Below are positions 1 to 29,632 of a stretch of 40,372 nucleotides of DNA, in pieces. This DNA comes from Synergistaceae bacterium (lineage in GTDB: Bacteria; Synergistota; Synergistia; Synergistales; Aminobacteriaceae), in assembly GCA_017448795.1 (NCBI GenBank), contig JAFSKV010000014.1, forward strand, positions 1-40,372, read 5' to 3'. The notes beneath the pieces are model-generated. The model did no database searches. It worked only from the letters and a program-made list of their open reading frames with translations, and had not been told where the DNA came from. Made by a program: the position numbers and the translations under genes. Within the stretch, counting starts at the first letter, position 1, and each line of letters opens with the position of its first letter.

Positions 1-28
1 ACGACACGACACGACACGACACGACACG
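1..28. repeat. 5-bp tandem repeat (acgac), about 5.6 copies, cut by window edge
   Basis: Perfect direct repeats of the unit acgac run from the first base of the window to about position 28, so the true copy number is unknown. The unit is not a multiple of three, so a change in copy number shifts any reading frame that crosses it. Frame 3 stays open from the array to a TGA at 102-104 that overlaps the ATG of the first SDR gene at 101. The other two frames stop at about 44-46 and 55-57. The array may lie in the end of an upstream gene or in a leader ORF; its start is outside the window. Confidence 0.85.
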
Positions 29-100
29 CACCCTTATTGTTCGTGAACATCGTCTGAATTTTCCATCATCCTATAATCTGCCCTCTGAGGTGTTGGAGCA

Positions 101-844
101 ATGAGTCCATTCACTTTGGGGGGCAGAACGATTCTCATCACGGGCGCGTCTTCAGGGATTGGACGGGCAGCAGCCATACTTTGCGCGGAAATGGGCGCGT
201 CCCTCATCATCACTGCAAGAAACGAGGAACGACTCGCTGGCACGCTGGACTCTCTTTCCGGCACCGGCCACAAGATGATAACGGCAGATCTTGCTGACGA
301 GTCGGAAATCTCGCGCCTTGTCGAACAGTCCCCGCCCCTCGACGGCCTCGTCAACAACGCCGGAATGATTGAGCTTCTCCCGTCAGAATACGTAACCCGC
401 GAAAAGCTGGATGAGATTCTTTCCGTCAACACTTACGCACCTATAACACTGTTCGCAGGCCTCGCAAGAAAACGCAAGCTCAGGAAGGGTTGTTCTGTTG
501 TCTTCACGAGCTCGCTTGCCGGGAATGTCGTTACTGCTTACGGTCATTCCATGTACTCAGTCTCAAAAGCCGCCGTGAGTGCCTTCGCGAAAACCGCCGC
601 CCTAGAAATGGCTCCGCGAAAAATCCGCGTCAACTGTGTCTGTCCCGGAATGATTGAGACCGGCCTCATACACAGCGAGAAAGTTACGCCCGAAATGCTC
701 GCCGAGGACGTGAAGAGATACCCTCTCAGGCGTTACGGGAAGCCGGAGGAAGTTGCGGGGGGAATCGCGTTCCTTCTGTCTGACGCGGCCAGCTTCATCA
801 CGGGAATCAATCTCATCATTGACGGAGGTATGACGCTGGTATGA
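101..844 (+). CDS. SDR-family ketoreductase (FabG-like), first of a tandem pair
   Basis: Predicted cytoplasmic short-chain dehydrogenase/reductase, 247 aa, the usual length for the classical family. The NAD(P)-binding motif TGASSGIG is at residues 14-21, NNAG at 85-88, the structural Asn at 110, and the catalytic Ser near 138 with Tyr152 and Lys156 (YSVSK). The C-terminus has the common FITG...IDGG ending. The likely reaction is reduction of a 3-oxoacyl-ACP to a 3-hydroxyacyl-ACP, because two KAS III genes and an ACP follow in the operon; a sugar substrate cannot be excluded. The ATG at 101 has only a weak Shine-Dalgarno (gagg at 87-90), and its ATGA overlaps the stop of an open frame that comes from the repeat array, so translation may depend on coupling. 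The stop overlaps the next gene by 4 bases (ATGA). Confidence 0.9.
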   Translation: MSPFTLGGRTILITGASSGIGRAAAILCAEMGASLIITARNEERLAGTLDSLSGTGHKMITADLADESEISRLVEQSPPLDGLVNNAGMIELLPSEYVTREKLDEILSVNTYAPITLFAGLARKRKLRKGCSVVFTSSLAGNVVTAYGHSMYSVSKAAVSAFAKTAALEMAPRKIRVNCVCPGMIETGLIHSEKVTPEMLAEDVKRYPLRRYGKPEEVAGGIAFLLSDAASFITGINLIIDGGMTLV

Positions 845-13956: not shown

Positions 13957-14676
13957 ATGCTCACACCCATAAATCACACATTACGCCGCAAAATCGGCCA
14001 AGCCCTCACACGCTGGCACATGATCTCACAGGGCGATAACATCCTCGTCGGACTCTCTGGCGGAAAAGACAGCCTCATCCTCCTTCACGCCCTCCACGAC
14101 TTCCAGCACAGAAGCCCCGTCAAGTTCTCACTATCAGCCCTCACCGTCAGACTCTCAGGCCTCGACATTTCACCCCTGCAATCATACTGCGAGTCCCTCA
14201 GCGTCCCTTACACTGTCATTGAACACGACATTATCGGCATCATTCACGCACGAAACGAGAAGTCCCCCTGCTCATTCTGCGCGAACATGAGGCGCGGTAT
14301 CATCAGCTCGTGGGCATCAAGGAACGGCTGCAACAAGCTCGCTTTAGGCCACACTCTGGACGACGCTGTTGAGACGTTCTTCATGAACCTGTTTCACGCA
14401 GGCCGGGCAAAAAGTTTCATTCCAAAAGTTTTGATGACAAGGACGGGCGTAACAGTCATAAGGCCGCTGGTTTTGTCGACAGAGTCAGCAATCATTGACG
14501 AGGTGAAACGCCTCAATCTCCCGGTAATCTCCAGCCCCTGCCCTTTTGCAGGCCACACAGAACGCCAGAGAATCCGCGGCTACATAGCCGGACTCAGGAA
14601 GGACATCCCGGACTTATACGGTAAAATATTGCACGCACTCGAAAATTTATCCGACTCCGAAAGCTGGCAATCATGA
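13957..14676 (+). CDS. TtcA-like PP-loop tRNA-thiolation ATPase
   Basis: 239 aa N-type ATP pyrophosphatase. The PP-loop SGGKDS is at residues 34-39, CSFC at 105-108, and a third cysteine at 195 (SSPCPFAGH). The three cysteines match the iron-sulfur cluster ligands of the TtcA/TtuA group, which thiolate cytidine 32 or uridine 54 of tRNA. Enterobacterial TtcA is longer (about 310 aa), so the exact substrate is not assigned. No RBS is seen before the start. The stop overlaps the mutS start by 4 bases (ATGA). Confidence 0.85.
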   Translation: MLTPINHTLRRKIGQALTRWHMISQGDNILVGLSGGKDSLILLHALHDFQHRSPVKFSLSALTVRLSGLDISPLQSYCESLSVPYTVIEHDIIGIIHARNEKSPCSFCANMRRGIISSWASRNGCNKLALGHTLDDAVETFFMNLFHAGRAKSFIPKVLMTRTGVTVIRPLVLSTESAIIDEVKRLNLPVISSPCPFAGHTERQRIRGYIAGLRKDIPDLYGKILHALENLSDSESWQS

Positions 14677-17246
14677 GCATAATACCGTCTGACGTGAAAA
14701 TTACCCCGTGGCTCGAACAGTTCAGGGACTTCAAGGAACAGTACCCCGACTCATTGCTCCTCTTCAGGATGGGCGACTTCTACGAGATGTTTTTTGACGA
14801 CGCTAAACAGGCCGCCTCCGTCCTCAATATAGCGTTGACCGCAAGAGACCCCGAAAAGAAAATCCCGATGGCCGGAATCCCTCATCACGCCCTCAACTCC
14901 TACTTGTCCCGCCTAATCCGCGCAGGCTACAGAGCCGCCATCTGTGAGCAAATCGGTGAACCAAGCTCGAAAGGCATCACTGACCGCCGGGTTGTCCGCG
15001 TAGTTACGCCCGGAACTTACCTTCCCGACGATGAGGCCTCAGAGTCAGCGCACCTTGCCTCAGTCTGGCCAGTCAGGGGAAGAATCGCGATGGCTCTGTT
15101 GTCGGTCAACACAGGACTGCTTGAAGCCGGGACTCTCACCATGAGGGATGCCGAGGCCATGCTGTCAGCGTTCACACCCGGCGAGATTCTCTACCCCTCC
15201 AACATCAGAGACCTTCCCCCTTTCCTCAACGGCTACAACCTCCGTCCCGTATCACCTGAAACCTTCAAGCCCGAAAACGCGTCAGGCCGTCTCAAGTCAG
15301 CATTACACACAACGAGGCTGGAAGGCTTCGGGATTGCTGACGGGGATTTATGCGCCGGGCCGGCTTGGGCAGCACTCGATTACCTCACGGCGACTCAGTT
15401 CAGCTCAATCAACGACATACTGAAGCTAGCACCCCTGACCGTCAAAGACAGAATGAGCCTCGACTCGTCAGCACAGAGAAACCTAGAGCTTATCCCTGAG
15501 ACATCCGGCGCAAGCGTCTCACTCTTCACGTCAATCGACAGATGCCGGACAAGCGCGGGAAAACGTACCCTCAAGGACTGGATATTACGCCCCCTCATGG
15601 ACGCAAAGGCCATCGCTGAACGTCAGCAGTATATAGGCGTGTTAGTCTCATCCCCCCGTGAATGCGCGGAGCTTCAGGACGCTTTAGCCGGGACTAGGGA
15701 TATTGAGCGTTCATTGTCGCGTCTGGCACTAGGTGCAGGAAACCCGGCGGATCTGTCAGCAATACGTGAGACTCTCAGGCTGATTCCCGCGATAAAGTCA
15801 GCGAATCTTGATGAGCCTTTGAGGACGTTACAGGAGTCATTGCCTGACACATCAAGCCTAAGAAGCTACCTTGAGTCCGCGCTTGAAGAGAGATTGCCGC
15901 GTCAGCTGGGGAACGGCCCGGTGATACGGTCATCATTCAGCCAGGAGCTGGGCGAAATCCGGGACTTCACGCAGAAGGGTGAGCAATGGCTGACGGAATA
16001 TCTTGAACGCGAGCGCGAGGCCACAAAAACACCCAAGCTCAAGGCAGGCTACACAAACGCATTCGGTTATTACTTGGAGGCCGGGAAATCGGGGCTTGCG
16101 TATCAGCCGGATTACTTCAGGCAGACTCAGACTCTCGTGAACTCGAAACGCTACACAACCCCTGAGCTTCGGAGCTTTGAGTCCAGGATGAAGAACGCTG
16201 AAGCTGAAATCTCACGGATTGAGTCGGAATTGTACCGGGCTGTAGTCTCACACGTCCTAGAAAACGGCAAGGACTTACAGCTCACAGCAAGATTGCTCGG
16301 AATACTGGACTGCACAGCCTCATGTGCTGAGATTGCGAGGGCGGGGAATTATTGTTGTCCTGTTGTGGATGACTCTGACGTGATAGACATAAAGTCGGGC
16401 CGCCATCCTGTGATTGAGCGCGAATTGAGGGACGCGGGGTTTGTGCCGAACGATGTCGGCATTGACCGGGACAGCCGGGTAATCATCCTCACCGGGCCGA
16501 ACATGGCCGGGAAATCTACGTGGCTCAGAATGACAGCGTTGCTCGTGATAATGTCCCAAGCCGGAATGTGGGTGCCAGCTGAGTCAGCAAGAATAGGACT
16601 CGTTGACCGCGTGTTTACCCGGATCGGGGCGCGTGATGACCTTGTGAGGGGGTCAAGCACGTTCATGGTTGAGATGCTGGAGACGGCTAACATCCTGAAC
16701 AACGTAACAGCCCGGAGCCTCATAATTCTTGACGAGGTCGGCCGGGGGACTGCAACATATGACGGGATGAGCATAGCGTGGGCGGTGCTTGAGTACCTGC
16801 ACGGAGCGTCGAAGGCTAGGGTTCTTTTCGCGACACACTACCACGAGCTGACGTGCCTTGAGGAGAGATTGGACGGCGTGAGGAATTACAGCATGACGGT
16901 CTCGGAAGGCAAAGAGGGCATCATGTTCCTTCACCAGGTTGTGAGGGGGGCGGCCGGGCGGTCATATGGTATTGAGGTTGCGAGGATTGCTGGCTTGCCT
17001 GATATTGTGCTGCGGAGGGCGTTCGAGCTTCTGGAGATATTCGAGCGTGAGGGCGTGGAGACCGGGGATATTCCTGCGCCGCTGCCTCAGGTTGCGCTGA
17101 GACGGCAGATTATGCTGTTGTCGCCGGAGAGTGATGCTGTTGTGGAGGAATTAGCGGGGCTGGATACGGACAACATAACACCGATTGAGGCGTTGAAGAT
17201 TCTGCACAGGCTGAAGATGAAGAGCATGGAGGCGCGTATGGTATAA
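14673..17246 (+). CDS. mutS: DNA mismatch repair protein MutS
   Basis: 857 aa, full length for MutS1. The mismatch-recognition Phe-x-Glu is at residues 36-38 (GDFYEMF). Walker A GPNMAGKST is at about 608-616, followed by LIILDEVGRGTATYDG (Walker B and dimer-interface region) and FATHYHEL. It recognises mismatches and small loops and recruits MutL. The gene is intact, which matters because its activity limits slippage at homopolymer and short repeats such as those in this window. The stop TAA lies inside the -10 box of the next promoter. Confidence 0.97.
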   Translation: MSIIPSDVKITPWLEQFRDFKEQYPDSLLLFRMGDFYEMFFDDAKQAASVLNIALTARDPEKKIPMAGIPHHALNSYLSRLIRAGYRAAICEQIGEPSSKGITDRRVVRVVTPGTYLPDDEASESAHLASVWPVRGRIAMALLSVNTGLLEAGTLTMRDAEAMLSAFTPGEILYPSNIRDLPPFLNGYNLRPVSPETFKPENASGRLKSALHTTRLEGFGIADGDLCAGPAWAALDYLTATQFSSINDILKLAPLTVKDRMSLDSSAQRNLELIPETSGASVSLFTSIDRCRTSAGKRTLKDWILRPLMDAKAIAERQQYIGVLVSSPRECAELQDALAGTRDIERSLSRLALGAGNPADLSAIRETLRLIPAIKSANLDEPLRTLQESLPDTSSLRSYLESALEERLPRQLGNGPVIRSSFSQELGEIRDFTQKGEQWLTEYLEREREATKTPKLKAGYTNAFGYYLEAGKSGLAYQPDYFRQTQTLVNSKRYTTPELRSFESRMKNAEAEISRIESELYRAVVSHVLENGKDLQLTARLLGILDCTASCAEIARAGNYCCPVVDDSDVIDIKSGRHPVIERELRDAGFVPNDVGIDRDSRVIILTGPNMAGKSTWLRMTALLVIMSQAGMWVPAESARIGLVDRVFTRIGARDDLVRGSSTFMVEMLETANILNNVTARSLIILDEVGRGTATYDGMSIAWAVLEYLHGASKARVLFATHYHELTCLEERLDGVRNYSMTVSEGKEGIMFLHQVVRGAAGRSYGIEVARIAGLPDIVLRRAFELLEIFEREGVETGDIPAPLPQVALRRQIMLLSPESDAVVEELAGLDTDNITPIEALKILHRLKMKSMEARMV

Positions 17247-17247
17247 T
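17239..17247 (+). promoter_or_regulatory. Extended -10 promoter (P1) of the first repeat cassette
   Basis: TGgTATAAT overlaps the mutS stop codon. It lies exactly 57 bases before an ATG at 17299 where the repeats begin. The second cassette (28484) has the same distance, and both share ATCCCA, AAGGA, TTGACA, GTGAAAT and ATAATG in the same order. Confidence 0.6.
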
Positions 17248-17271
17248 CACGAAATCCCAGCAGTAAGGAGG

Positions 17272-17300
17272 TTGACAGGTGTGAAATTGCGCGCCATAAT
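17272..17300 (+). promoter_or_regulatory. Second promoter-like element (P2), TTGACA-17-CATAAT
   Basis: A near-consensus -35 (17272-17277) and a -10 (17295-17300) with 17-base spacing. Transcription from here would start inside the 7-bp repeats, so copy number could also alter the initial transcript. The alternative reading is that the same bases are a Shine-Dalgarno (aaggagg 17265-17271) and GTG start of a leader ORF transcribed from P1. Confidence 0.5.
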
Positions 17301-17367
17301 GTTCGCAGTTCGCAGTTCGCAGTTCGCAGTTCGCAGTTCGCAGTTCGCAGTTCGCAGTTCGCAGTAG
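17281..17367 (+). CDS. Leader ORF made of 7-bp repeats (28 aa), possible phase-variable leader
   Basis: GTG at 17281 is 9 bases after a strong Shine-Dalgarno (aaggagg). It reads VKLRAIM, then three copies of FAVRSSQ (21 bases each, three 7-bp units), then TAG at 17365. The peptide is encoded by the repeat itself, so it is unlikely to have a function as a protein. With one unit fewer (or two more), the frame would instead run to a TGA at 17441-17443 overlapping the ATG of the glycosyltransferase; with one more unit it stops at once. Translation of this ORF is inferred, not shown. Confidence 0.4.
   Translation: MKLRAIMFAVRSSQFAVRSSQFAVRSSQ
17301..17365 (+). repeat. 7-bp tandem repeat (gttcgca), 9 copies
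   Basis: Nine perfect units from 17301 to 17363, followed by the first two bases of a tenth. Perfect identity of all units suggests recent slippage. The unit is not a multiple of three, and none of the three frames has a stop inside the array. Confidence 0.95.
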
Positions 17368-17439
17368 CTTAGTCTGTCCTTTCACATCATCCCACAACAA
17401 ACGCAATTCAGGTTCACGTTCATGCGCGGGGGTACTGCC

Positions 17440-18519
17440 ATGATTGGCGGGGTGCTCTCAAAGGCTTATCCGGATAACATGACTCCTCCTCACTTCCAAG
17501 TCGTTCATGAATGGGAGGAAGAAATCGCAAAGCGTCTTGGCGTGCCTGTCAGGAAAATTTTTGTGGAAAGCAATCCCGCCCCCTCCAAGTTCCGTATTAC
17601 GCCGAAATTAATGCGTCTCCGCCACATAATAGCAGGGAAAGTTTTTCTCACGTTCCCCTTAATCAGGCGCATGATCTGTGACAGGCTTCGCCCGCCCTTC
17701 ACTCAAGACATCAGCCTTCCCCTTTCTGTATGCTTTCTCATGAGCGTACACATCAAAGAAGTGTCTATGCTCTCAGGGAACAACTGCATTCCTGTTTTCT
17801 TGGACGTATGGAGCGACTTCAACATTGAGGAGGTCGTCAGGCGCACAAAGGGCTTCCGGCTCTTCTACGTAACATCCCGCGATGTCTACAACCGTGTCAA
17901 AGCAACCTCGCCGCAAAGCAACGTACACTACATGCCGCTGTCAGTCGCCGACAAGTATCACTCCGAGAATTTCTCCGCCTACAGGAACAAGACAATAGAT
18001 GTCCTTCACTCCAGCCGTAAAAATCCCGTGCTTCACGAATACATGATGCAGTACGCCGACAAACACAGCGGGCTTGATTACGTCTACAAGGAGAACGGAG
18101 AATACATCTCAACCCTCCGCGGAAATATAGGCCGGTGTCTCAGCCGCGAGGACTACATGAACCTCATAGCCTCAGCGAAAGTGTGTCTTGTGGGCTGCTC
18201 AGGCATCGACGGCTCAAGGGCTGACACTTACGGAATATGCTTCCCGACCCCGCGCTTCTACGAGTCCGCAGTACTAGGCTGCGCGCTCATAGGCCGTTAC
18301 CCCGAAAACCAAGAGTTCCGCGAACTCAACATGTCCCGTTACTGCCCAAACATCACCAGCTACGACCAATTCACCCACGAGCTCGAACGCGCATTGTCCC
18401 AGACACCCGAAGAACTTTACGCACAAAACCGGGACTTCATCCTAGGCTCCCTCACCAGCAAGAGGGCCGAACAGATCCGGCATGACCTGGAGGAGCTGAC
18501 ATGCGGACAAAATTCCTGA
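17440..18519 (+). CDS. Glycosyltransferase-like protein (GT-B type, glycan biosynthesis)
   Basis: About 359 aa without signal peptide or membrane segments. The middle and C-terminal half look like a GT-B family 1/4-type transferase: DVLHSSRKNP, LIASAKVCLVGCSG, and GICFPTPRFYESAVLGCALIGRYPENQEF, where the FYE-A-x-G-x-x-LIGRYP block corresponds to the nucleotide-sugar site. The donor is unknown. The start is uncertain: ATG 17440 fits an ATGA overlap with a leader frame from the repeats and has gcgggggt upstream; ATG 17422 and ATG 17479 are in the same frame. The frame is open back to the repeat array but blocked by TAG at 17365. The flavoprotein gene overlaps its end by 19 bases, so they form an operon. 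Confidence 0.7.
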   Translation: MIGGVLSKAYPDNMTPPHFQVVHEWEEEIAKRLGVPVRKIFVESNPAPSKFRITPKLMRLRHIIAGKVFLTFPLIRRMICDRLRPPFTQDISLPLSVCFLMSVHIKEVSMLSGNNCIPVFLDVWSDFNIEEVVRRTKGFRLFYVTSRDVYNRVKATSPQSNVHYMPLSVADKYHSENFSAYRNKTIDVLHSSRKNPVLHEYMMQYADKHSGLDYVYKENGEYISTLRGNIGRCLSREDYMNLIASAKVCLVGCSGIDGSRADTYGICFPTPRFYESAVLGCALIGRYPENQEFRELNMSRYCPNITSYDQFTHELERALSQTPEELYAQNRDFILGSLTSKRAEQIRHDLEELTCGQNS

Positions 18520-19752: not shown

Positions 19753-21465
19753 ATGCCCGCAATATATTCACTACCCGAAAATGTCTGGTCCCGTATAGCC
19801 GCCGGAGAAGTCGTAGAACGCCCCGCCTCAGCCGTCAAGGAACTCACAGAGAACGCCTTGGACGCAGGAGCAGCAAGAATATCCGTGATGCTCAAGGACG
19901 GAGGACGTTTGCGGATTGTCGTTGAGGATGACGGGGAAGGGATTGCGTTTGACGACCTGCCCCTGGCTCTCATGTACCACGCAACAAGCAAGCTCCGCGA
20001 AATCTCAGACCTTGAACACATAAGCACGTTGGGTTACAGGGGTGAAGCATTGGCCAGCCTCGCAGCAGTTGCCGACGTTGAGATACGCAGCAGGCAGGCA
20101 GATGATGACGAGGGGGGATTAGTCCGCACACATGACGGCAAAATCACCGAGCATGTCAGGGCGAAATGCTCACAGGGTACACGCGTTCAGGTATCGGACT
20201 TGTTCTCAGGCCTCCCGGCAAGGCGCAAATTCCTCAAGAGCGCGTCGGGCGAATTGAGGCGGGCGGCTGTCTTCCTGCGTGAGTATTCCGTGTGCAACCC
20301 GGGAGTCGCTTTCAGGCTTGAGCATGACGGCCGTGAGATATTCAGCACTGACGGCTCAGGCGACAGGAGGCGAGTCCTCGCGAAAATCTGGCCTGAAGGC
20401 GCGGAGATTCAGACGGTCAACATAACGGGCGGGCATCTTGCGCTTGAGTGCTGGTTCCAGTCGAGGGCGGGAATATCAGGCCGCGGGGACTTGATGGCTT
20501 TCGTGAACGGCCGGGCTGTCAACGACCCTGTGATACGTTCTGCTGTTGCGGCTGCTGCGAGGGAGCTTGCGGGGAACTGGGCATTGTTCTTCACGCTTGA
20601 GCCTTCACTTGTCGACGTGAACATTCACCCGTCAAAAGCTGAAGTCCGCTTCCGTTACCCCGATGAGATATACACGAGCATTCACCACGCTGTGAGGAGC
20701 CTAGGAAGCCCCGCGGTTATCCCTGAGACAGTAACAGCCCCCGTGAGGATTTCCCCGCCAGCAAAAACGCAGCCTTCATCCCCCCCGTCAAGAAGCGGCT
20801 GGAATTTCCGCGACACTCCCACAGTGAAAGCAACGCCGAATTTCCCGGCAGAAAACGTGCAGGGTGAAATTTTTGCTGACACTGAGACTGTCCCGGAGGA
20901 TTCAGGTGTCCGCTTCATGGGGCAAAATTCGGGCGGGTACTTGGTGTATGACACGCCTGAAGGATTGGTGATTGCTGACCCACACGCGGCGCATGAAAGA
21001 GTGAACTATGAGCGTATAAAGTCGGCGGCGGAAAATTCCCGGAACGTGCAGAAATTGCTTGTGCCTGTGATTTTGCACCCTACGCTTGCGCTTGAGACGG
21101 CGGAATTTGAGGAGGCTTTGAGGGATTCGGGGTTCGAGTTCGTGAACAGTGAGTCAGGAGTCGAGATGAGTGCAGTCCCGGCTGTCGGTAGCGTTGACTT
21201 TGAGCCGGAAGCGTTGCTGCGGGCATCATTGCGGGCGCTGAAGAATAATCATGACGGTGATACGAGAAATATATTGTGGCGGACTTGGGCGACGATGGCG
21301 TGCAAGGCATCCGTGAAGCTCACCACGAAGCTGACGGAGGAGGAGGCGTTGAGTTTGTGGCGGGAACTTCACGGGTGTGAACAGCCTTTTGTGTGTCCTC
21401 ATGGCCGGCCTGTTATGATTGAGCTGAAGAATGAGGACTTATTGAGGCGGTTCGGGCGGGAATGA
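19753..21465 (+). CDS. mutL: DNA mismatch repair protein MutL
   Basis: 570 aa. The GHKL ATPase motifs are present: ELTENALDAGA, DDGEGI, and GYRGEALASLA. The endonuclease-type metal motif DQHA(x)2E(x)4E appears at 409-420 as DPHAAHERVNYE, with Pro in place of Gln. The C-terminal CPHGRP motif is intact, so this is probably a nicking MutL, as in bacteria without MutH. It couples MutS mismatch recognition to strand removal. The RBS is aaggag before ATG 19753. The stop is one base from the stop of the convergent WG-repeat gene. Confidence 0.95.
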   Translation: MPAIYSLPENVWSRIAAGEVVERPASAVKELTENALDAGAARISVMLKDGGRLRIVVEDDGEGIAFDDLPLALMYHATSKLREISDLEHISTLGYRGEALASLAAVADVEIRSRQADDDEGGLVRTHDGKITEHVRAKCSQGTRVQVSDLFSGLPARRKFLKSASGELRRAAVFLREYSVCNPGVAFRLEHDGREIFSTDGSGDRRRVLAKIWPEGAEIQTVNITGGHLALECWFQSRAGISGRGDLMAFVNGRAVNDPVIRSAVAAAARELAGNWALFFTLEPSLVDVNIHPSKAEVRFRYPDEIYTSIHHAVRSLGSPAVIPETVTAPVRISPPAKTQPSSPPSRSGWNFRDTPTVKATPNFPAENVQGEIFADTETVPEDSGVRFMGQNSGGYLVYDTPEGLVIADPHAAHERVNYERIKSAAENSRNVQKLLVPVILHPTLALETAEFEEALRDSGFEFVNSESGVEMSAVPAVGSVDFEPEALLRASLRALKNNHDGDTRNILWRTWATMACKASVKLTTKLTEEEALSLWRELHGCEQPFVCPHGRPVMIELKNEDLLRRFGRE

Positions 21466-22431: not shown

Positions 22432-23331
22432 CTACCTGAGGCGTACGAGGGCTGCTTTCGCGTCTTCATCACCTTGTTCCGCAGCGGCCTGATACCATTT
22501 ACGGGCTTCCTGAAGATTCTTTGCGACACCCTCGCCATTTTCATACATAAGCCCAAGGTTGAACTGCGCCGGAACTTCCCCCTGTTCGGCGGCCAGAGTG
22601 TACCACATAACAGCCCCTGTCTTGTCCTGCCTGACACCATCGCCCTTGAAGTACATATTTCCCAAGTTGCATTGTGCCGGAGCATACCCCTTCTCAGCGG
22701 CCAAGAGATACCATTTAAATGCCTCTGTCTTATCCTGCCCGACACCCTCGCCCTTGAAGTATTTGTTCCCCAAGTTGAATTGCGCCTTTACGTGTCCCTT
22801 CTCGGCGGCCAGACGATACCACTTCACGGCCTCTGCATAATTTCCGACCTCGTAATGCTTCTTGCCTAATTCATACTGCGCCTGCGCGTCTGTAGGCTCA
22901 TTCAGATTTTGCGCGTTTGCCCGCCTTTGTTCCTCAAGCCGCCTCTCCGCTTCCTCTCTTAGCCTGGCCTCCTCAGCTTTTTGCGCCTCTAGCTGCTTCA
23001 GAGCCTCCTCACGCTGCCTCAGCTCTTCTCTCAGGCGTTCCTCTTCCTGAAGTTTACGTTCGAGTTCGCGCTGTATTTCTTCCCTGCGTTTCGCCTCTTC
23101 TGTATGCCTGCGTTCTTCTTCTATGCGTTCCTCATCCTTGCGCTTAAGCTCAAGTATCCGCTGTATTTCGAGTATTCTCATGGCTTCTGCCTCAGTGTCA
23201 TTTTCCTTCTTGCCGAATATTTCCTTCAGCCACGGAAATTTCCATATCGCAACCATAATCAGAATGCCGCACATGATTTCACCGCCGAACTTCTTTATGC
23301 CCTCGAATATCATCTCGGTTACAGCTTCCAT
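22432..23331 (-). CDS. Membrane-anchored coiled-coil protein with Sel1-like repeats
   Basis: 299 aa from the ATG at 23331, which has ggaggca as RBS; the longer frame to 23400 reads through the typA terminator and is rejected. Residues of about 16-34 form a hydrophobic segment (IMCGILIMVAIWKFPWL) that probably anchors the protein. Residues 45-140 are a long Glu/Arg/Lys-rich coiled coil. The C-terminal 150 residues hold four Sel1/TPR-like repeats of 36 residues (A-x-x-WY/L-AAEKG-x-x-x-A-Q-x-NLG-x-x-Y-x-x-G-x-G). Such repeats scaffold protein complexes. Function is not known. Confidence 0.8.
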   Translation of the reverse strand: MEAVTEMIFEGIKKFGGEIMCGILIMVAIWKFPWLKEIFGKKENDTEAEAMRILEIQRILELKRKDEERIEEERRHTEEAKRREEIQRELERKLQEEERLREELRQREEALKQLEAQKAEEARLREEAERRLEEQRRANAQNLNEPTDAQAQYELGKKHYEVGNYAEAVKWYRLAAEKGHVKAQFNLGNKYFKGEGVGQDKTEAFKWYLLAAEKGYAPAQCNLGNMYFKGDGVRQDKTGAVMWYTLAAEQGEVPAQFNLGLMYENGEGVAKNLQEARKWYQAAAEQGDEDAKAALVRLR

Positions 23332-23378
23332 CGTCCTGCCTCCTGTTTTCGGGAATATGAATATTGTAACAGTCAGCC

Positions 23379-23416
23379 AAAAAAAAATTCCCCCTGCCAT
23401 AACGACAAGGGGAAAA
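23379..23416 (-). terminator. Rho-independent terminator of typA
   Basis: On the minus strand, ttcccc (23414-23409) pairs with ggggaa (23393-23388), followed by nine T (the A run at 23379-23387). It lies 9 bases beyond the typA stop. Confidence 0.85.
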
Positions 23417-28480: not shown

Positions 28481-28489
28481 TGCTATAAT
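28481..28489 (+). promoter_or_regulatory. Extended -10 promoter (P1) of the second repeat cassette
   Basis: TGcTATAAT on the plus strand, 57 bases before the ATG at 28541, matching the spacing of the first cassette. Confidence 0.6.
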
Positions 28490-28512
28490 TCCCCCATCCC
28501 AACAAGAAAGGA

Positions 28513-28542
28513 TTGACACACATTGAGTGAAATCGGTATAAT
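28513..28542 (+). promoter_or_regulatory. Second promoter-like element (P2), TTGACA-18-TATAAT
   Basis: Both hexamers are consensus with 18-base spacing, so this is the strongest promoter by eye in the window. Transcription would begin inside the 7-bp repeats. The region also reads as RBS (aaagga 28507-28512) and TTG start at 28523 of a leader ORF, as in the first cassette. Confidence 0.6.
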
Positions 28543-28624
28543 GGCTCACGGCTCACGGCTCACGGATCACGGCTCACGGCCTGTTGTCTGCGCAAGTAAC
28601 TTCACTCCCTCCGTCAAAATCTGA
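28523..28624 (+). CDS. Leader ORF crossing the 7-bp repeats (33 aa), possible phase-variable leader
   Basis: TTG at 28523, 10 bases after aaagga, reads LSEIGIM, then repeat-encoded residues and a unique tail, and stops at TGA 28622-28624. The first ATG (28541) is 18 bases after the start, exactly as in the first cassette (17281 to 17299). With one repeat unit fewer, the frame would run to TAG at 28674-28676 and overlap the methyltransferase start by 10 bases; with one unit more it stops at 28597-28599. Translation is inferred. Confidence 0.35.
   Translation: MSEIGIMAHGSRLTDHGSRPVVCASNFTPSVKI
28543..28580 (+). repeat. 7-bp tandem repeat (ggctcac), 5 copies plus partial
   Basis: Units at 28543, 28550, 28557, 28564 and 28571; the fourth is ggatcac, one base different, and three bases of a sixth follow. 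The sequence is unrelated to the gttcgca unit of the first cassette, although unit length and position relative to the promoter are the same. Confidence 0.92.
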
Positions 28625-28666
28625 CACAATCCCCAATCCGTCAACATCACTTCAGGAGGCGGCATC

Positions 28667-29632
28667 ATGCTTGTAGAGTCTCCCCTGAAGCTCAATGAGG
28701 ATGAAATTCGCGCATTCTCCGAAAGATACATTATGTCGCTTGAGTCCGAGTATATGTGCTGGTACAACGTCCTGAAGAACACCCCGCCCGAAAAACGCCC
28801 GAAAGCAGGCTCAAACTCTCCCTTCAAGTGTCCTGACCTACTCTCGTCATACCCAAATCCTGAAGTCCTCGAAGTAGGTTGCGGACTCTACCCGGCAGGA
28901 AGCCTTCCCCCTGAAGAAGGACACAGCATCTCAGTAACATCCTGTGATGCCCTCGCTGTACCGTATTCAGTCATTCACTCACTTTTCGGGGTGAAGCCTT
29001 ACACAAAGATTGAGTTCTCATTTGTCGAGCGTCTCACCGAGCGTTACGGCGAAAACAGCTTCGACATCGTCAGGATGAGCAACGCCCTTGACCACAGCTA
29101 TGACCCTTTCACCGGGATATTCGAGATGCTCAAGGTTACACGAGTGGGTGGGACTCTCAGGCTGTATCACTATGAGAACGAGGCGGAACGGGATCTTGAG
29201 TACGGAATGCACCAGTGGAACATCACATCAGACGGCCCGGACTCTATGGTCATATGGCGGAGGGGCTTCAGGGCTGAAATCCGAGACATACTCGGCCCGG
29301 CGGCAAGATTGCGTACTACAAGGCCGCAGACATTCCTAAGGCACAAAGGTGGCAACGTTGAGACGATTCAGACGGACATTCTCAAGCTCGACGACATAGA
29401 GACTCCCGCTAAGAAGGGCATGAACATACTCGATGAGTCATTCCTGAATTTCTGCCTCATGAAAAGCTCCTCACGTTTCGCGTCAGCCTTCAGGAAAGCA
29501 CGCGGCTATGACCCGTTCCGCAAGAGCATGTTCAAGCGGATGATTGCTTACGCTCCCATGAGCCTGCGGAAATACGTCCCTTCATGGCTCGAACGCCTCG
29601 TGAGAAGCACCGCCCGCAAGATAGGCTACTGA
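28667..29632 (+). CDS. SAM-dependent methyltransferase-like protein
   Basis: 321 aa. VLEVGCGLYPAGSL near residue 65 is the SAM-binding motif I, and FDIVRMSNALDHSYDPFTGIFEMLKVTRVGGTLRLYHYE near 125-165 corresponds to the motif III-IV region of class I enzymes. The N- and C-terminal parts (basic MSLRKYVPSWLERLVRSTARK end) are unlike small-molecule housekeeping methyltransferases and resemble those in surface-polysaccharide loci. The substrate is not known. ATG 28667 has a good Shine-Dalgarno (aggagg, 7 bases away), so it can be translated without coupling. It is a single-gene unit, convergent with trpB2. Confidence 0.75.
   Translation: MLVESPLKLNEDEIRAFSERYIMSLESEYMCWYNVLKNTPPEKRPKAGSNSPFKCPDLLSSYPNPEVLEVGCGLYPAGSLPPEEGHSISVTSCDALAVPYSVIHSLFGVKPYTKIEFSFVERLTERYGENSFDIVRMSNALDHSYDPFTGIFEMLKVTRVGGTLRLYHYENEAERDLEYGMHQWNITSDGPDSMVIWRRGFRAEIRDILGPAARLRTTRPQTFLRHKGGNVETIQTDILKLDDIETPAKKGMNILDESFLNFCLMKSSSRFASAFRKARGYDPFRKSMFKRMIAYAPMSLRKYVPSWLERLVRSTARKIGY

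Follow-up and report, generated by a model that had tools for sequence, protein, structure and literature searches.

Tandem-repeat cassettes as a candidate family of translational on/off switches for surface-sugar genes in one Synergistales genus

A heptamer array before a methyltransferase-like gene appears to be one member of an extensive family of on/off gene switches that had not been described before, found at more than 100 surface-sugar gene sites in one genus. Judging from comparison of the sequences, we think it very probable that these cassettes are contingency loci at which simple-sequence-repeat phase variation acts on translation, in a fused and a leader-coupled form. An mRNA from an upstream promoter, P1, would carry a Shine-Dalgarno sequence and an ATG, GTG, or TTG start codon, from which the ribosome would read across units of non-triplet length (7, 5, or rarely 8 bp), and slipped-strand changes in copy number would shift it among the three frames. 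One frame would be open to the gene, and the remaining frames would hit early stops. At about half of the loci the open frame would be the gene itself (fusion); at the others, the methyltransferase locus included, it would be a short leader that terminates at the start codon of the gene, typically as ATGA, where the geometry suggests that terminating ribosomes could re-initiate (translational coupling). The novelty lies in a standard module that contains an embedded promoter, in leader coupling, in the variety of repeat units, and in how many such loci one Synergistota genus has.

The window, by which we mean the whole stretch of 40,372 nucleotides that was analysed (contig JAFSKV010000014.1), comes from a Fretibacterium-like genus of Synergistales, a group of uncultured bacteria. 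Its methyltransferase locus has the following parts:

28484-28489, forward strand: P1, upstream -10 element TATAAT, likely promoter of the leader mRNA (sequence; recurrence in cassettes)
28504-28512, forward strand: Shine-Dalgarno AAGAAAGGA of the leader ORF (sequence; belongs to the cassette pattern AAGGA-N0-4-TTGACA)
28513-28542, forward strand: P2, embedded promoter TTGACA-N18-TATAAT overlapping the leader start codon (promoter search; promoter-blind arrays)
28523-28624, forward strand: leader ORF in its current frame, TTG start, TGA at 28622-28624, OFF/uncoupled (in-silico frame reading)
28543-28580, forward strand: heptamer array GGCTCAC x5.4, with one variant unit GGATCAC (sequence)
28581-28676, forward strand: post-array tail; removal of one unit or addition of two gives the coupled frame, which stops at TAG 28674-28676 (in-silico frame reading; orthologue comparison)
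28654-28659, forward strand: the methyltransferase gene's own Shine-Dalgarno AGGAGG (sequence)
28667-29632, forward strand: class I SAM-dependent methyltransferase-like gene, 321 aa (weak Pfam and PDB matches; orthologues)

The array lies immediately 3' of the TATAAT at 28537-28542, which pairs with TTGACA 28513-28518 over a spacer of 18 nt, and the leader start codon TTG 28523 has AAGAAAGGA 10 nt upstream. In-silico editing of the array bore out the frame reading of the first-pass annotation: from this codon the leader now stops after 33 codons at TGA 28622-28624, with one unit removed it runs for 48 codons to TAG 28674-28676 and overlaps the methyltransferase ATG 28667 by 10 nt, and with one unit added it stops at TAA 28597-28599. 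Adding two units has the same effect on the frame as removing one, a point absent from that annotation. As sequenced, the locus is in the uncoupled phase, in which little expression is expected, although the methyltransferase gene's own Shine-Dalgarno sequence may allow some. The 321-aa product matches Pfam Methyltransf_11 weakly (E 0.0025, below the cut-off) and PDB methyltransferases at E 0.0008; on these matches, the gene at the METHYLTRANSFERASE locus is classed as a divergent class I methyltransferase. Orthologues at 55-77% identity occur in 4 congeners behind arrays of GCCTTGT (x4 and x7), GTATCAG (x6), and GGCTCAC (x3), and with one genome compared per species these are copy-number differences between congeners, not within species. 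A survey of homologous loci had been proposed as a check on the coupled frame, and all five orthologues keep one: although units and copy numbers differ, exactly one of the three frames ends +10 or +4 from the methyltransferase ATG in 5/5 cases. The coupled frame is the current one in G009 and G011, and not in the other three genomes (G030, G027, and that of the window).

Matches to TTGACA-N16-19-TATAAT in the window's own genome comprise tRNA and other ordinary promoters together with many sites leading straight into short tandem arrays, and these arrays carry units other than GGCTCAC. With the pattern AAGGA-N0-4-TTGACA-N15-19-TATAAT, cassettes were found in 29 of the 41 genomes of the genus that were searched, the other 12 having no strict match, and we compared 132 distinct cassettes from the 29 genomes, which are not phylogenetically independent of each other. 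The order of parts is Shine-Dalgarno, start codon, embedded TTGACA-N17/18-TATAAT, and, directly adjoining it, tandem units of 7 or 5 bp. An array is present in 117/132 cassettes, and in most of the others a known unit is still recognizable in one or two degenerate copies. The periods, counted before one duplicate cassette was dropped, are 7 (96 arrays), 5 (19), 8 (1), a diverged 7-mer read as 14 (1), and a weak call of 6 (1), and never 3 or 9 among the 117 array-bearing cassettes. Two near-identical paralogous cassettes of one genome (L188 and L190 in G027) carry the 8-bp unit GCCTCGTT in 1 and 5 copies, respectively. Outside the genus, the pattern gave four matches in about 120 genomes of the order, and the one that was examined (L195) has no array; a strict-pattern search of IMG/VR phages gave two matches, with no array at either. 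Arrays of the commonest unit are confined to this genus.

From the start codon, the non-triplet periods, the stop-free units, and the frame structure after the array, we infer that the array is translated. An ATG, GTG, or TTG lies between the -35 element and the array, in a frame open to the array end, in 113/117 cassettes, compared to 35 +- 4.5 (maximum 47 of 500) when the spacer is shuffled. All 46 unit types are free of stop codons on the forward strand (null 5.6 with a stop, P 0.002), whereas 14/46 have one on the reverse strand, and the unit length is indivisible by 3 (7, 5, or 8) in 116/117 arrays, with one weak exception. At 45 of the 104 testable loci, one frame continues straight from the array as an ORF of at least 100 aa, which is the fused form; an example are GT2 domains that start directly after the array without an intervening start codon. 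Non-productive frames close within 8 codons in 55% of cases, compared to 36.5 +- 3.2% in the null. The productive frame is the current one at 28 of the 95 loci with an assigned start (~29%), near the one third expected from random phase. Different arrays often share a tail, in that the productive frame directly behind them reads LxYxLLT or SLVCPFT-like (L095, L105, L138, L141, and L154, for example).

The coupled leader frame first noticed before the methyltransferase recurs widely among the 58 leader-type (non-fused) cassettes: with the downstream start chosen by Shine-Dalgarno quality and distance and coupling not used, one leader frame has its stop between -5 and +11 relative to the next start codon at 53 of them, 21 at +4 (ATGA), while shuffling of the intervening DNA gave 20.4 +- 3.2 with a maximum of 30 in 1000 trials. 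Counting one locus per unit type, the coupled geometry is present in 22/25. The first-pass annotation had warned that a chance open frame of this length is not rare in GC-rich DNA, and this holds for the length at a single locus but not for the geometry, which is far above shuffled controls and recurs genus-wide. If the tandem repeats in 5' regions were inert or due to chance, and the open frames simply what GC-rich DNA gives, some coupled loci would still be expected, given that shuffles reach 20 of 58, but this would not account for 53, for the same frame retained in five diverged orthologues, or for cassettes limited to one genus and one architecture; we rate this explanation as close to negligible. 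A second caution, that the methyltransferase gene has its own good ribosome-binding site (AGGAGG) and need not depend on coupling, was upheld, and there is no systematic masking by RNA structure: concealment of the downstream Shine-Dalgarno sites did not differ from shuffles (55 loci, Wilcoxon P 0.37). Given this lack of extra concealment, genes behind an OFF leader may be expressed at a reduced level instead of not at all.

Of the 132 cassettes, 94 have a TATAAT-like -10 element (one mismatch allowed) 14-29 nt 5' of the Shine-Dalgarno, compared to 22% in shuffles; at this tolerance about 30% of cassettes lack it. Leader transcription is probably driven by this upstream P1. P2, with at most one mismatch and nearly always an 18-nt spacer, is present in 38/42 sampled arrays found by repeat unit alone (statistics based on sampled stretches and unit-based searches), and shuffled upstream DNA almost never yields it. 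Transcription from P2 would start ~7 bases past the TATAAT, within the first repeat unit and 3' of the leader start codon, and leader translation would therefore need transcripts from upstream. The promoter that the first-pass annotation had placed beside the repeat is there and similar between cassettes, but it cannot transcribe the leader start, for which the upstream -10 is needed.

If copy number instead tuned P2 initiation or the 5' UTR, with the leader frame irrelevant, one could understand why a near-consensus P2 with an 18-nt spacer stands at nearly every promoter-blind array and why the array begins at offset 0-1 from the -10 in 101/117 cassettes. However, such transcriptional control does not need a conserved start codon, stop-free units, non-triplet periods, or the frame geometry, and in fused genes a start codon is often missing between the start point of P2 and the conserved domain. 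The array lies 3' of the -10, so that copy number leaves the -35/-10 spacing unaffected, and it does not bear on an upstream activator site either, in contrast to promoter-spacing phase variation. Altogether, transcriptional control appears decidedly unlikely to us.

In the translational-switch model that we prefer, P2, a perfect promoter of the sigma70 type, appears as a constant but superfluous part of the cassette, and the family raises the question of why a consensus promoter overlapping the start codon stands directly before nearly all arrays. P2 is also found at fused genes, where its transcripts would have no start codon, and at leader-type loci it could give a leaderless mRNA that bypasses the switch. 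The options for P2 are an open complex on the array that promotes slippage, a phase-blind second transcript for coupled genes, a sigma-dependent pause, and ancestral descent with later constraint. That P2 is a working part of the switch, its open complex or start point lying exactly at the first repeat unit and either raising the slippage rate of the array as a programmed hypermutation site or making a second, phase-blind transcript, is an unlikely reading; if true, it would point to a promoter-armed contingency locus unlike any described. Array length showed no clear trend with P2 quality, with too few cases.

Related cassettes share units and flanks at many loci (GTTCGCA with AGCTTAGTCTGTCC tails), and some contigs end in arrays, as could be expected of a dispersed mobile or gene-converted module that copies itself in the manner of STRR or STAR repeats and affects the frame only incidentally. 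Against such a module, the spacers between the hexamers vary widely among families and function-specific geometry is retained at each gene, and we regard it as highly improbable. Contigs begin or stop inside arrays in several genomes (L011, L021, L063, L082, and others) and in the window, which suggests length heterogeneity or plain repeat collapse in assembly.

A Pfam scan of 101 proteins downstream of cassettes found GT2, bacterial sugar transferases, and GT1/4/8/10, O-acyltransferases (MBOAT and acyltransferase-3), as well as LicD, small-molecule methyltransferases, radical SAM, and secreted repeat proteins. By these assignments, the targets match the usual contents of contingency gene sets, and since they are mainly surface-glycan enzymes, the switch probably makes cell-surface sugars vary stochastically. 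The cassettes point to a sizeable set of phase-variable genes in Synergistota with units of the heptamer class and add a leader-coupled mode, in which repeat number would decide the translational coupling of the gene.

Among known systems, neuO of E. coli K1 (phage CUS-3) carries the heptanucleotide AAGACTC in its 5' coding region, is expressed when the repeat number is divisible by three, and was OFF in 65.6% of 64 genomes (PMC13001214). It resembles the Synergistales family in the 7-bp unit within the 5' coding region, in the modulo 3 dependence, in having a surface-glycan O-acetyltransferase as target, and in its OFF share, which compares to about 71% of loci here. However, neuO is a single locus with fusion only, whereas the Synergistales cassettes are many and both fused and leader-coupled. 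To our knowledge, neuO has no embedded promoter at its start codon and no leader-coupled form. The repeat loci of Haemophilus and Neisseria (lic, mod, and opa) likewise have non-triplet 5' repeats at surface-sugar and methyltransferase genes, with LicD in both settings. Units of the Haemophilus and Neisseria contingency loci are mostly of 1, 4, or 5 bp; the Synergistales family differs by its many 7-bp unit types, its one standard module, and leaders that end on the gene start. Switches with units of 6-9 nt are seldom reported (PMC4692102). The leader-coupled geometry is like the overlapping-ORF coupling (ATGA) of the GeneTack survey, where the ORF1 stop lies within about 10 nt of the ORF2 start, but that survey treats phase variation and translational coupling as separate classes (PMC3711429), whereas in the Synergistales cassettes repeat number sets whether the coupling geometry exists. 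A search of open-licence papers, where absence is weak evidence, found no report of repeat-based switching in Synergistota, no paper joining Fretibacterium and phase variation, and none combining phase variation, translational coupling, and a repeat tract.

The window holds two other cassettes, one of them cut by the contig start, and both have the leader-coupled form like the methyltransferase locus:

17242-17443, forward strand: first cassette as a whole (sequence; in-silico frame reading)
17242-17247, 17265-17271, 17272-17277, 17281, and 17295-17300, forward strand: parts of the first cassette, namely -10, Shine-Dalgarno, TTGACA, GTG start, and CATAAT
17301-17365, forward strand: array of the first cassette, GTTCGCA x9.3
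17440-17443, forward strand: ATGA of the first cassette's coupled frame (-1 unit), with TGA 17441-17443 at ATG 17440
1-104, forward strand: third cassette, cut by the contig start (sequence; in-silico frame reading)
1-28, forward strand: array of the third cassette, ACGAC/CGACA x5.6

In agreement with what had been noted before, the first cassette and that of the methyltransferase have different 7-bp units (GTTCGCA and GGCTCAC) in the same place beside a similar promoter, with arrays abutting the -10, and both need the loss of one unit for coupling (TGA 17441-17443 and TAG 28674-28676). In the third cassette, one frame ends with TGA 102-104 over ATG 101 of an SDR gene (ATGA 101-104). For the gene that follows the first cassette, ATG 17440 in the ATGA overlap is the probable start, and not the upstream ATG 17422 of the longest ORF. 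This cassette sits between mutS (14673-17246) and mutL (19753-21465), mismatch-repair genes that affect repeat stability in other systems. Further along, a 108-bp tandem repeat of 2.6 copies (22552-22835) lies inside the ORF at 22432-23400.
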